A stretch of 64,000 nucleotides of DNA, taken from Bernardetiaceae bacterium. Its GTDB lineage: Bacteria > Bacteroidota > Bacteroidia > Cytophagales > Thermoflexibacteraceae. Positions 28,540 through 35,228 of the stretch are shown in pieces (the first letter of the stretch is position 1; the number at the start of each line of letters is the position of its first letter). A program made the position numbers and the translations under genes. The notes below the pieces were generated by a model, which did not search any database, was not told where the DNA came from, and saw only the letters and a list, made by a program, of their open reading frames with translations. Where the stretch lies: NCBI GenBank assembly GCA_025057115.1, contig JANWWZ010000010.1, positions 1-64,000 of the forward strand, given 5' to 3'.

Positions 28540-28544
28540 TCTTC

Positions 28545-28900
28545 CTGCCGTTGTTCGTGTTCCCTTGTTGTTGTTCGCGTCCCCTGCCGTTGTTTGTGTC
28601 CCCACAAACAACCCCTCTGCCGTTGTTCGTGTTCCCTTGTTGTTGTTCGCGTCCCCTGCCGTTGTTTGTGTCCTCACGAACAACCCCTCTGCCGTTGTTC
28701 GTGTTCCCTTGTTGTTGTTTGCGTCCTCTGCCGTTGTTTGTGTCCTCACAAACAACCCCTCTGCCGTTGTTCGTGTCCCCACGAACAACCTCTGTCCCCT
28801 TTCCGTTGTTCGTGTTCCCTTGTTGTTGTTCGCGTCCTCTGCCGTTGTTTGTGTCCTCACAAACAACCCCTCTGCCGTTGTTCGTGTCTCCACGAACAAC
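28545..28900 (-). repeat. Tandem hairpin array 'A', 72-bp period
   Basis: Three consecutive 72-bp units start at 28545, 28617 and 28689. A 33-bp half-unit begins near 28761, another 72-bp-type unit follows, and a final half-unit ends at 28900. Each unit contains one near-perfect hairpin with 10-bp arms (GTTGTTYGTG, four-base loop, CACRAACAAC) and one pair of the same half-site in non-hairpin arrangement. Hairpins lie at 28589-28612, 28661-28684, 28733-28756, 28766-28789, 28844-28867 and 28877-28900. Because 72 is a multiple of three, several frames stay open on both strands; I regard those frames as artefacts. The orientation is set by matching the locus at 57 kb. Confidence 0.9.
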
Positions 28901-28947
28901 TTCTTTGTAAACGCAAAAAGCAGGGATAATCCGAATGTACACTTTTC

Positions 28948-31610: not shown

Positions 31611-32160
31611 CCCATGGCAAACTCTCTCTTCTAGGGTAGTGTACGAAAACCGATGGATTTCCGTGCGGGAGGACCAGGTAATTAACCCCGCTGGAAATCC
31701 AGGAATTTACGGTGTGGTAAGTTTTAAAAATATAGCTATCGGCATCATTCCCATTGATGAAGAAGGTTACACTTGGTTGGTAGGGCAATACCGCTATGCC
31801 TTGCACGAGTATTCTTGGGAAATTCCCATGGGAGGCGGACCTAAGGGACAGGATATTCTTCTCTCAGCCCAACGCGAATTAAAAGAAGAAACTGGATTTA
31901 CTGCCCGCCGATGGACCTGTTTGATGAAACTACATACTTCTAACTCAGTTACCGATGAGGTGGGTTATGTATTCTTGGCAGAAGAGCTACAAGCTGGTGA
32001 AACTGCCTTTGAAGAAACCGAACAACTTTCCCTTTGGCGGCTTCCTTTTGAACAAGCCGTGCAAATGGTCATGGACGGACAAATTACTGACGCCATTAGC
32101 GTAGCAGGTTTGTTAAAAGCTGCTGCCCTCCGAGCTACCAATCGCAACCATGCAAGTTAG
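31594..32160 (+). CDS. Nudix hydrolase (ADP-ribose pyrophosphatase-like)
   Basis: A 188-residue enzyme that should hydrolyse a nucleoside diphosphate linked to a sugar or similar group. I choose ATG 31594 (MDPTNNPWQTLSSR), which overlaps the previous gene by 17 bases; a longer frame from 31516 would read through the body of that gene. The Nudix box is GGPKGQDILLSAQRELKEETGF (about residues 76-97). The metal-binding REXXEE core is intact, but the first Glu of the canonical G-x5-E is Gln. EIPMGG before the box resembles the EIPAG of NudF-type ADP-sugar hydrolases. The 3' end overlaps the convergent protease-like gene by 26 bases. Confidence 0.88.
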   Translation: MDPTNNPWQTLSSRVVYENRWISVREDQVINPAGNPGIYGVVSFKNIAIGIIPIDEEGYTWLVGQYRYALHEYSWEIPMGGGPKGQDILLSAQRELKEETGFTARRWTCLMKLHTSNSVTDEVGYVFLAEELQAGETAFEETEQLSLWRLPFEQAVQMVMDGQITDAISVAGLLKAAALRATNRNHAS

Positions 32161-33046
32161 AGCCATGAAGCCACATCTTGCGCTTTTTCCAGTCAAGGGT
32201 AATGTTTTGCCGTTGGAGCAATGCCAACCCTAGTAAGCCATACTTGCTTTGCGAAAGTCCTACAGGAAGGCGGTCATACCGAATGGAACCTTCGATGCAT
32301 ATGGAATCGGTGAGGCGACCCCGTAGGGCTTTGGCTTGGTGAAGTCCTTTTTGCCAATGCAAGCCTTGCAAAGGATATTCGTACATAAAAGAAGTGTAGT
32401 TGCCGCTAAATTCTTCATCCAATAGGACGCCTCCTGCAAATCCTGTACTAATATAACCCACCAGCTGATAAGGAAAGCGATTAAACTTCACTTGGCACTT
32501 AGGTACGCGGTGAATAGTGCGATTAAAGGAAATAGCTACCGAACTGGGCTGCTTCTCAAACTGATCCGTAGAAGGAGCGATAATCACTATGCGACGTTTC
32601 CAGTCAAAATGCCATGTGCTGTGTTGCATTAAGTTTGCTCCTAAAATGCCCTGAACTCCTATGGAATCCATCATGCGGTTTGCTGAAGCAGAAGGCAAAC
32701 CAGCGGTCAAGTCAGTGATAACGCGCTTGCCTACTATAAGGGGAGCTTGTACCTGACCAAAAGAGTTAGCCAGGGTATCTCCTTCAGCGTTCATTAGCGG
32801 CAGGTGAACCTGAGGCTTTACTGCTGGTGATAAACAAGGGAGTCCAGTATCTATTAGCCATTTTTGCCGCTGCTTTCCATGTTGAAGGGTTACGATGGGC
32901 AGAATGGAATCCACCAAATAGAGCGTATCACAAAGGTGATTATTTTCAACTTTGCCTTTGCGCATTAGTTGATAAAGTTGCTCATGGTCGGTAGAGCAAC
33001 CAAATAGAAAAAATAAAGCGGCGAGAAATCCTTTAGGCGCTCCCAT
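32135..33046 (-). CDS. Aspartyl protease-like lipoprotein (retropepsin/clan AA fold)
   Basis: A 303-residue protein. The N-terminus ends in LFGC, a good lipobox with lipidated C17, so the protein should be membrane-anchored in the periplasm. The motif WLIDTGLP (D66) and the later GILGANLMQHSTWHFDWKRRIVII (about 135-158) follow the clan AA pattern: a catalytic DTG, then a psi-loop ILG plus strand. A second half (about 175-300) repeats a similar strand layout with LLDEEFSGN and YGLLGLALLQRQNITLDWKKRKMW, so the chain looks like a two-lobed protease in which the second DTG has been lost. Its ATG overlaps the cas6 stop (TAATG). Confidence 0.75.
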   Translation of the reverse strand: MGAPKGFLAALFFLFGCSTDHEQLYQLMRKGKVENNHLCDTLYLVDSILPIVTLQHGKQRQKWLIDTGLPCLSPAVKPQVHLPLMNAEGDTLANSFGQVQAPLIVGKRVITDLTAGLPSASANRMMDSIGVQGILGANLMQHSTWHFDWKRRIVIIAPSTDQFEKQPSSVAISFNRTIHRVPKCQVKFNRFPYQLVGYISTGFAGGVLLDEEFSGNYTSFMYEYPLQGLHWQKGLHQAKALRGRLTDSICIEGSIRYDRLPVGLSQSKYGLLGLALLQRQNITLDWKKRKMWLHGSNLHGCDW

Positions 33047-33879
33047 TACCGATAAGAAGGCACTACTTTAGGAGGTAGTGTTTGTTGGAGCTCGTAAGGC
33101 ATGCTGCGCAGAGTAGGGTCGCTGTTAGCAATGTCTACCATGCCGTAGCCTGCTGTAGTAGCCTCGCCCAGTCCGCAGAAAAATACAAACCGTTGCACTT
33201 CAGGATGCGCATACAAGACAAAAGGCATTGTATAACCCCTTACTTCTATCTTGCCATCCTGAGAAGACAAAGAATAGATTCGCGCAAATTTTTTAGACTC
33301 CTTGGAAAGTTTAGAAAGATAGTATTGGTCAGGCACTATTTGAAAGCGGTAAAAACTTGCTATTTCTTCGGGAGAAAAAAGTCCTGAGCGTTCTAGGCGG
33401 TTCATGGTAGATTCGTAGAGCAGGTCAGAAAATTGGTCTGTATCGGGCATTATGAAATCTTTGGGGTTGAACTGCTTACTGGACTGGAGGGTACAAATCA
33501 AAGGCGATAAGCAGACGTATTTCATTTGTTCGCTGAACTCGGGGGATTCTTCTCGCTCTACAAACTCGGGAGAGAGAATCAGTCCACCTAATTCGACAAA
33601 CTGATTGCGGAATAACTGTTGCAAAAAGTAGTCTGTAAAATGTTGCTCCAGACAAGTAAACACTAATGTTACGCGGTTAGAGAAATACTGCAAGCCATGG
33701 CGAGTTACCTTGGTTTGCCCTTTAATACCTGAAAAGTTATAAAACTGACATTTTTGACCTCCTTTATCAGCAATGTCTGAGGTTAGGTCGCTCACCATCG
33801 ATGCCAGCAGATGTTGGTGGTGAAACGGGAGGATTCCGCCTTTATTCCGTAGTTTAAAAATAATTCTTACTCTCAACAC
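33046..33879 (-). CDS. cas6: CRISPR-associated endoribonuclease Cas6 (isolated)
   Basis: A 277-residue protein with the Bacteroidota Cas6 layout. It has an N-terminal RRM-type domain (RVRIIFKLRNKG.LPFHHQHLLASMV; candidate catalytic His among H20, H21, H23), then FYNFSGIKG, LQYFSNRVTLVFT, LILSPEFVEREESPEF, LSPLICT, FSDLLYES and FQIVPDQYYLSK. The KKFARIYSL and EVRGYTMPFVLYAHPEVQRFVF stretch leads to the C-terminal glycine-rich loop FCGLGEATTAGYGMVD. Cas6 cuts CRISPR precursor RNA within each repeat. The start must be non-ATG (GTG 33879 or TTG 33876). No CRISPR array and no other cas gene occur in the window. It is translationally coupled to the protease-like lipoprotein gene. Confidence 0.88.
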   Translation of the reverse strand: MLRVRIIFKLRNKGGILPFHHQHLLASMVSDLTSDIADKGGQKCQFYNFSGIKGQTKVTRHGLQYFSNRVTLVFTCLEQHFTDYFLQQLFRNQFVELGGLILSPEFVEREESPEFSEQMKYVCLSPLICTLQSSKQFNPKDFIMPDTDQFSDLLYESTMNRLERSGLFSPEEIASFYRFQIVPDQYYLSKLSKESKKFARIYSLSSQDGKIEVRGYTMPFVLYAHPEVQRFVFFCGLGEATTAGYGMVDIANSDPTLRSMPYELQQTLPPKVVPSYR

Positions 33880-34051: not shown

Positions 34052-34264
34052 TTAAGGTACTGGGTCGTAGCCGCTGCCTCCCCAAGGATGACACCGACTC
34101 AGCCGCTTCAGTCCTAACCAACTGCCTTTGAGAAGACCGTACTTGGTAACTGCTTGTATCATGTAAGTGGAGCAGGTAGGCACAAAGCGGCACGAAGAAG
34201 GATAGAGCGGGCTGATAGCTGCTTGGTAAACCTTCAGTAAACAGACAAAGGCACGTTTTATCAT
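34052..34264 (-). CDS. yidD: Membrane protein insertion efficiency factor YidD
   Basis: A 70-residue protein with the YidD pattern from end to end: [24 protein letters not shown], then a short amphipathic helix, then [24 protein letters not shown]. The CRF.PTCS and RC.P..G.G.DPVP motifs are diagnostic. It assists the YidC/Sec insertion of inner-membrane proteins. Here it stands apart from rnpA and yidC, divergent from sucD across a 73-base gap. Confidence 0.93.
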
Positions 34265-34337: not shown

Positions 34338-35228
34338 ATGAGCGTATTGGTTAATCAGTTTTCCCGTATCATTGTTCAGGGTTTTACTGGCTCGGAGGGC
34401 ACCTTTCACGCCTGTCAAATGATTGAATACGGCAAAGAGCACAACGGTGCACAAGTAGTAGGAGGAGTTCGTCCAGGAAAAGGAGGGACGCTGCATATAG
34501 GTTTACCTGTGTTCGATACAGTTAAAGAAGCCATTGCCGCTACAGGAGCTAATGTATCTATCATTTTCGTACCTCCTGCCAATGCTGCTAATGCGATTTT
34601 GGAAGCCGCCGATGCGGGCATTGAACTGGTAGTATGCATCACAGAGGGAATCCCAGTAAAAGACATGATGAAGGTGAAACACATCCTGCAAGGTAGCAAA
34701 ACGCGCTTGATAGGTCCTAACTGTCCAGGAGTGATTAGTGCAGGTCAAGCCAAAGTAGGCATCATGCCGGGGTTTGTTTTTCAACCTGGGCGAGTCGGTA
34801 TTGTTTCTAAATCGGGAACCCTTACTTACGAGGCTGCCGACCAAATTGTAAAAGCAGGGTTGGGCATTTCTACTGCCATTGGCATCGGCGGCGACCCTAT
34901 CATTGGCACCACTACCAAAGAAGCCGTGGAATTGCTCATGAACGACCCTGAAACAGATGCCATTGTAATGATAGGCGAAATAGGCGGCCAGTTAGAAGCT
35001 GAAGCAGCCCGATGGATTAAAGCCAATGGCAACGGCAAACCCGTAGTAGGTTTTATTGCTGGGCAGACAGCTCCTAAAGGGCGCCGCATGGGACATGCAG
35101 GAGCTATCATAGGGGGAGAAGAAGACACTGCCGCTGCAAAAATGCGCATCATGCGTGAAAATGGCATTGTAGTAGTGGACTCACCTGCTCTCATCGGCGA
35201 AACAGTAGCCCAAGTGCTGAAAAAATAG
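34338..35228 (+). CDS. sucD: Succinyl-CoA synthetase alpha subunit
   Basis: A 296-residue subunit that binds CoA and carries the phosphohistidine intermediate in the reversible conversion of succinyl-CoA to succinate with ATP or GTP formation (TCA cycle). The CoA-binding domain starts [17 protein letters not shown] and continues [29 protein letters not shown] and the ligase domain follow, with the phosphorylated H253 in [10 protein letters not shown]. pyrR follows 28 bases later. The beta subunit gene is not adjacent; it lies at 55-56 kb on the other strand. Confidence 0.95.

Follow-up and report, generated by a model that had tools for sequence, protein, structure and literature searches.

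Cas6 proteins are commonly used as markers of CRISPR systems. The 64,000-nucleotide stretch of Bernardetiaceae DNA analysed here (the window) holds a Cas6-family gene that stands by itself, and it raises the question of what such a gene does in the cell. An earlier note, made from the sequence, had offered three options for it: service to a distant array in trans, decay as a remnant, or processing of some other structured RNA. The main result of our analysis is that the gene belongs to a vertically inherited, order-wide family, which is not visible from a single sequence. We use the label OC6 for this separate clade of Cas6-family proteins; the window member and its neighbouring genes are listed in the table.

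Table. OC6 and adjacent genes, with positions in the window
Feature	Position	Strand	Size	Basis and remarks
Lipoprotein gene with DTG/ILGxxL aspartyl-protease-like pattern	32135..33046	(-)		Pattern seen by eye
OC6, orphan Cas6-family protein	33046..33879	(-)	277 aa	GTG start; ORF call and profile matches
yidD-like gene	34052..34264	(-)	70 aa	172 bp upstream of OC6, same strand
sucD-like gene	34338..35228	(+)		Divergent from OC6; name from sequence; conservation yardstick

By its C-terminal RAMP domain and glycine-rich loop, the window protein is a true Cas6 homologue. It scored 65.2 bits against PF01881 in a Pfam scan (cut-off 23) and matched the PADLOC Cas6b model at 3.7e-29, while its score against NCBIfam TIGR01877 (57.6 bits) fell slightly below the equivalog cut-off of 58.65. 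The earlier note had recognized Cas6 from its conserved blocks and glycine-rich loop and had named a profile search without Cas6 matches as a refutation; the search returned Cas6 families and upheld the assignment. All 28 members of A1, the profile and alignment of 28 OC6 members, likewise matched both PF01881 and TIGR01877 at E 1e-3 or better. The loop of the window protein contains G236, G238, G244, and G246, all four of which are invariant in 48 OC6 sequences. Most family members begin with M-R, so the alternative TTG at 33876 is as good a start as the GTG. A genome search with the window protein revealed no second copy in its own genome, the Cas6b described below being too divergent to show.

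Across the full 64 kb, an array finder detected no CRISPR array. The sole item that it flagged, as three copies near 28.5 kb, was a tandem repeat between leuS and the next gene (28544-28904; 72-base unit, 3.3 copies, 96% match). Because the whole 72-base unit repeats at this level of match, the element is without unique spacers and is not a CRISPR. Querying the full window by tblastn with 32 marker proteins, taken from type I, II, and III cas loci, gave no cas gene, and searches of the genome with RAMP, Cas1, and Cas5 models gave no match on the window's contig. All three approaches agree with the original observation that neither an array nor another cas gene lies in these 64 kb.

The earlier note had also remarked on an overlap with an aspartyl-protease-like lipoprotein gene. 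The overlap itself was confirmed, as the OC6 stop codon TAA and the lipoprotein ATG have one base in common at 33046. The protease likeness, on the other hand, is a motif found by eye. The DTG/ILGxxL pattern fits the label but does not prove it, and scans of the lipoprotein against Pfam and NCBIfam gave no match up to E 10. Conservation of the pair, which the note had proposed to check, held in all four genus members (4/4) but in no other lineage fetched. Such confinement to one genus looks like local history, and the idea of OC6 and the lipoprotein as a functional unit was rejected on this ground. Identity within the genus was 76-77% for OC6, 90-91% for sucD, 78-80% for pyrR, and approximately 50% for the lipoprotein. 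The yidD-like gene, which we take to be yidD from its sequence without a family scan, was also present upstream of OC6 in two further loci (L040 and L043). Succinyl-CoA ligase domains were found in 2 of 95 OC6 neighbour proteins.

Searching the full genome (3.0 Mb, 86 contigs) for arrays and cas partners, as the earlier note had proposed, recovered both on other contigs. Contig C3 carries a type III-A locus composed of cas10, csm2-5, a CARF-PDDEXK gene, and csx20; a gene for a 233-aa Cas6 (PADLOC Cas6 match 5.8e-41, Cas6b) lies ahead of these. The genes cas1 and cas2 are located on contig C55. With the repeat seen in genus relatives as query, 88 CRISPR repeat copies were counted on contigs C24 (66), C77 (1), and C86 (21). 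The repeats of C24 and C86, which are 37 bases long, perhaps belong to one large array broken by assembly. The Cas2 protein of this genome (L007 13969-14655) has an N-terminal extension of about 130 aa, and the best match to a PADLOC Cas2 model is confined to residues 131-228.

The Cas6b of the III-A locus has an H-N-H histidine pair in its sequence, which agrees with M. maripaludis Cas6b, where two histidines are implicated (passages on that enzyme in PMC3652601). Cas6b proteins at 72-75% identity were found in three other genus members, beside cas10 in one and beside RAMP matches in two. As the III-A locus has its own Cas6b, the local system needs no window gene as its sole Cas6. The note had named a complete CRISPR-Cas locus elsewhere, lacking its own cas6, as a finding that would explain the window gene fully, and the III-A locus is not of that kind. 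These results bear directly on the reading that OC6 is a trans-acting crRNA-processing Cas6, a permanent host gene serving any class 1 array that is acquired. A type III-A locus and 88 repeats in the same genome would provide such an enzyme with a target, whereas the separate H-N-H Cas6b, with similar proteins in three genus relatives, argues against a need for it.

One full-length OC6 ortholog was present in 35 of the 59 genomes of the relatives set (own genome included), with identity dropping with kinship; a 36th genome held a divergent Cas6 only. Across the order, the A1 profile matched 181 of 390 genomes; 5 of these matches were weak (E above 1e-20), so 176 genomes count as carriers. OC6 was absent from entire families of the order. 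At the level of the class, 19 of 295 genomes matched at 185 bits or more, including 12 outside the order (185-257 bits). The other 8 matching genomes reached at most 61 bits, revealing a score gap between OC6 and other Cas6. Among 395 genomes searched across the phylum at E 1e-20, 9 fell in the OC6 range, all from the same order, and 16 others scored 74-88 bits. We fetched 15 of these 16 genomes and called 14 Cas6 ORFs (none was obtained for L130). All 14 contained LHxxG, having been chosen by similarity to an LHxxG-bearing Cas6, and 9 of the 15 loci carried cas markers. With this combination of LHxxG and cas markers, the 74-88-bit homologues were taken for CRISPR Cas6, not OC6.

OC6 had no match in phages, and no relatives were found in viral contigs. 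A secondary replicon carried the gene in one case: in Bernardetia sp. Wsw4-3y2, OC6 lies on a 602-kb replicon (L117; NZ_CP147018.1 328852-329664), in the vicinity of purQ and a gene for methylmalonyl-CoA mutase. It is annotated there as 'CRISPR-associated endoribonuclease Cas6'. The gene is thus not always chromosomal, but on the sum of these searches phage or plasmid cargo was rejected.

Phylogenetic analysis separated the 48 OC6 sequences from 14 other Cas6 rows, some of them on very long branches, with a support of 94/100. On this tree, 18 group labels needed 18 changes, the fewest possible being 17 and shuffled labels averaging 45; the family groups f1, f4, f8, and f14 were not single clades (two changes each). 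The tree follows taxonomy, and OC6 is vertically inherited. It is also under purifying selection, with dN/dS of 0.02-0.09 in five close pairs (three with dS under 1 and two with dS above 1.7; four further pairs were saturated). That OC6 is simply what is left of a former CRISPR-Cas locus, the second option of the earlier note, would be consistent with the orphan position without cas partners and with loss of the usual catalytic segment (see below). This option is contradicted by the dN/dS values, by 16 residues that are invariant in 48 sequences, and by retention in 176 of 390 genomes, and we regard it as scarcely credible. A pseudogene was rejected on the same dN/dS values.

Cas markers, type II included, were absent from all 48 OC6 loci but present in 15 of 27 other-Cas6 loci in the same scan, with the qualification that the markers were drawn from loci of this study and remote variants may escape (compare the 12 controls without a match). 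The stretches scanned comprised the full window for the own locus and 7 to 17 kb for the other OC6 loci. L083, an OC6 locus outside the 48 in which the ORF was lost to an overlap during ORF calling, was removed from the control loci, reducing them from 28 to 27. No CRISPR arrays were detected in OC6 loci; of the two repeat matches, one is the window tandem repeat, and the other, in L091, corresponds to a repeat protein, presumably of the WG-repeat type.

Among the 95 direct neighbours of OC6, PADLOC identified no cas family. The only widely recurring partner was ychF, which lies immediately upstream of OC6 in the same orientation in 17 of the 48 loci; these come from eight families within the order and two beyond it. 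Pfam detected a type 9 secretion plug domain in 9 of 95 neighbours, which fits a convergent neighbour of 420-432 aa in 9 loci. A link to RNA repair through an RtcR-like neighbour was considered and dropped. This protein (L070 4229-5611; 1 of 95 neighbours) matches the RtcR profile only from position 98, and it was therefore taken for an NtrC-type regulator.

These neighbourhoods also inform the possibility that OC6 is a non-immune defence component, such as an RNA-sensing or anti-phage RNA-binding protein, and not a housekeeping factor. Eleven defence models had matches among the 95 neighbours, each to one protein only, and none recurred. A vertical tree and a ychF context, both seen for OC6, are not known to be typical of defence genes. 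While its Cas ancestry and its absence from some families would suit a role in defence, on balance we consider such a role quite unlikely.

To relate OC6 to CRISPR systems, the 59 relatives (35 carriers and 24 non-carriers) were scanned with Cas1, RAMP, and Cas5 models. Genomes with a RAMP or Cas5 match, or with Cas1 below 1e-40, were scored as class-1-like, and Cas1 matches of E 1e-19 to 1e-33 as short-type. The 35 carriers comprised 11 without a Cas1, RAMP, or Cas5 match, 12 with short-type Cas1 only (mostly type II), and 12 that were class-1-like. Class 1 matches showed no association with OC6 (12 of 35 carriers vs 7 of 24 non-carriers; p=0.78). A match of any kind was commoner in carriers (24 of 35 vs 7 of 24; p=0.004, shared ancestry ignored), also without genomes under 2 Mb (7 of 18 non-carriers; p=0.046, shared ancestry again ignored).

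The 11 carriers without a match differ in assembly, with G009, G011, and G028 in hundreds of contigs and G015, G032, and G044 in one to four; G015 is assembled in a single contig. In G037 and G058, also among the 11, there is an additional, divergent Cas6. PADLOC gave no match for three neighbours of these divergent genes, and the two genomes may contain systems missed by the models. For the reading of OC6 as a trans-acting crRNA processor, the excess of cas matches in carriers is favourable. However, OC6 is not associated with class 1 systems, and class 1 matches are missing from 23 of 35 carriers (including the two with a second Cas6). Because of these carriers and the separate Cas6b, supply in trans was rejected as the main reading, and we judge it unlikely. 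What stands of the first option in the earlier note is that the genome does contain repeats and a III-A locus; this locus and those of genus relatives have a Cas6b of their own, and OC6 also occurs in genomes where the scan gave no sign of type I or III.

All 12 genomes in which short-type Cas1 was the only match were carriers (12 of 35, vs 0 of 24 non-carriers): G006, G008, G012, G013, G017, G019, G029, G031, G042, G046, G052, and G057. This distribution may reflect shared ancestry. Near cas1, 10 of the 12 loci encode a large protein (1110-1589 aa) that bears what we take to be a RuvC-I-like motif, as expected of Cas9. The large protein of L133 is without this motif, and L134 has no large protein. 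Both the distribution and the Cas9-like proteins favour a link between OC6 and type II systems, in which it could, for instance, be an accessory protein that binds tracrRNA or pre-crRNA. In opposition, 11 of 35 carriers have no Cas1 match at all, including the one-contig G015, and the 48 OC6 loci contain no type II marker. Two non-carriers (G007 and G010) have short-type Cas1 as well, together with RAMPs, and, as the tree follows families, the pattern may stem from common descent. Given the commoner cas matches in carriers, and short-type-only genomes that are all carriers, there is some room for a link to CRISPR, type II included, but we consider the type II role itself very unlikely.

The OC6 profile aligned with PfuCas6, PfuCas6nc, PH0350 (3QJJ/3QJP), which we take to be PhCas6nc, and 5yi6; six solved sequences were matched in all. 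LHxxG was found in none of the 48 OC6 sequences, compared to 23 of 28 other Cas6 (9 of 14 plus 14 of 14, the latter being the phylum ORFs selected by similarity to an LHxxG-bearing protein). The triad of PfuCas6 consists of Tyr31, His46, and Lys52 (passages on catalysis in PMC3652601). At the Tyr31 position, Tyr occurred in 0 of 48 OC6 vs 11 of 14 other Cas6. At the Lys52 position, a basic residue was rare in OC6 (3 Lys and 1 Arg among 48) and frequent in the other Cas6 (7 Lys and 3 Arg among 14). The triad is thus missing from OC6 at 31 and 52. The His46 column contained no His in OC6 (0 of 48), but the other Cas6 had none either (0 of 14); it is therefore uninformative and was withdrawn as evidence, with the LHxxG motif used in its place.

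Conservation in OC6 lies elsewhere. The 16 residues invariant in 48 sequences are H21, S50, K53, P126, D184, Y187, K196, R200, Y216, P219, F220, the four loop glycines, and D249. The loop is shorter in most OC6, and 22 of 48 have some His with no fixed place by eye. An HQ motif considered as a new active site was withdrawn, as it is present in PfuCas6 and 5yi6 too. Judged from sequence, OC6 is without the usual Cas6 catalytic segment. The loss of LHxxG, Tyr31, and Lys52 is a further point against crRNA processing in trans. OC6 is most likely an RNA-binding protein, and cutting by another site is possible. Sulfolobus Cas6 is active without a catalytic histidine (passages on that enzyme in PMC3652601), so a missing histidine is no proof of inactivity.

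Of the three options in the earlier note, action on another structured RNA survived best, although the ligand was not found by hairpin folding or by Rfam near the gene. Upstream regions of OC6 were folded for ten groups, which had no hairpin in common by eye, and Rfam gave no match near OC6 in 9 loci or in 28-40 kb of the window. A structure model from a 3-row alignment reached a pLDDT of 38.5, and the OC6 fold and cleft therefore rest on sequence. No paper on a family like OC6 was found by title and abstract in open-access PMC, and the consulted sections of a CRISPR exaptation review (PMC8730458) contain no such case.

Inheritance, genomic context, and constraint together suggest that OC6 probably acts on some other RNA of the cell. 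We think it fairly likely that OC6 is an old, vertically inherited branch of Cas6 outside CRISPR that was domesticated and acts on cellular RNA. Its capture from a CRISPR-Cas locus probably took place in a lineage ancestral to Cytophagales and to certain other Bacteroidia. The captured gene would then have been kept at a chromosomal site, often immediately downstream of ychF. Its two RAMP domains, together with the intact glycine-rich loop, are predicted to have kept their grip on a specific RNA in the intervening cleft. OC6 might bind and shield a chromosomally encoded RNA, or cut it slowly via other residues, with H21, K53, K196, and R200 as candidates, in the manner of the histidine-independent Sulfolobus Cas6.

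A more specific version has in our estimate slightly better than even chances: early Bacteroidia turned a Cas6 into a housekeeping RNA factor whose ligand is a fixed and conserved RNA of the cell, and the protein is still active in this role in Cytophagales. Its function would perhaps be tied to translation, as the ychF context suggests. If true, a lone Cas6 inherited with the chromosome, even where the scans detected no system that uses Cas6, would be an unusual single Cas protein recruited to cell RNA biology. A CRISPR RAMP protein would have been exapted for core RNA metabolism by itself, with no other Cas component. Cas6 matches of the OC6 kind could then lead to miscounting of CRISPR systems. 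The function of OC6 is directly testable in cultured Cytophagales.

Compared with known systems, OC6 has the C-terminal RAMP domain and the glycine-rich loop in common with CRISPR Cas6 and Cas6b (PF01881, TIGR01877). Unlike these, it has not kept LHxxG, Tyr31, or Lys52, has no cas markers nearby, and is vertically inherited. A short type I-B Cas6 (PADLOC PDLC02101; L075 8462, L099 7382) resembles OC6 in that it is also without LHxxG and has a short loop. In contrast to OC6, it is found in loci with cas1, cas2, cas3, cas5, cas7, and cas8, has His at the Tyr31 position (as in L075, a type I-B locus), and falls outside OC6 in the tree. Two CRISPR loci, L075 (7638 and 8462) and L124 (6583 and 7229), each contain a pair of neighbouring Cas6 genes, of which one has the usual length and the other is short and without LHxxG.

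Sulfolobus Cas6 (Sso1437) uses Lys25, Lys28, Lys51, and Arg231 (passages on that enzyme in PMC3652601). It is a CRISPR enzyme. In OC6, neither the Tyr31 nor the Lys52 position carries a conserved basic residue. Pyrococcus PfuCas6nc (3UFC) and PhCas6nc were both found by the OC6 profile. They are described as inactive Cas6 homologues, and PhCas6nc as one that binds RNA in its interdomain cleft (passages on these proteins in PMC3727216 and PMC3652601); OC6 likewise appears by sequence to be without the catalytic residues. The Pyrococcus Cas6nc proteins, however, are archaeal, while OC6 is a bacterial, order-wide family.
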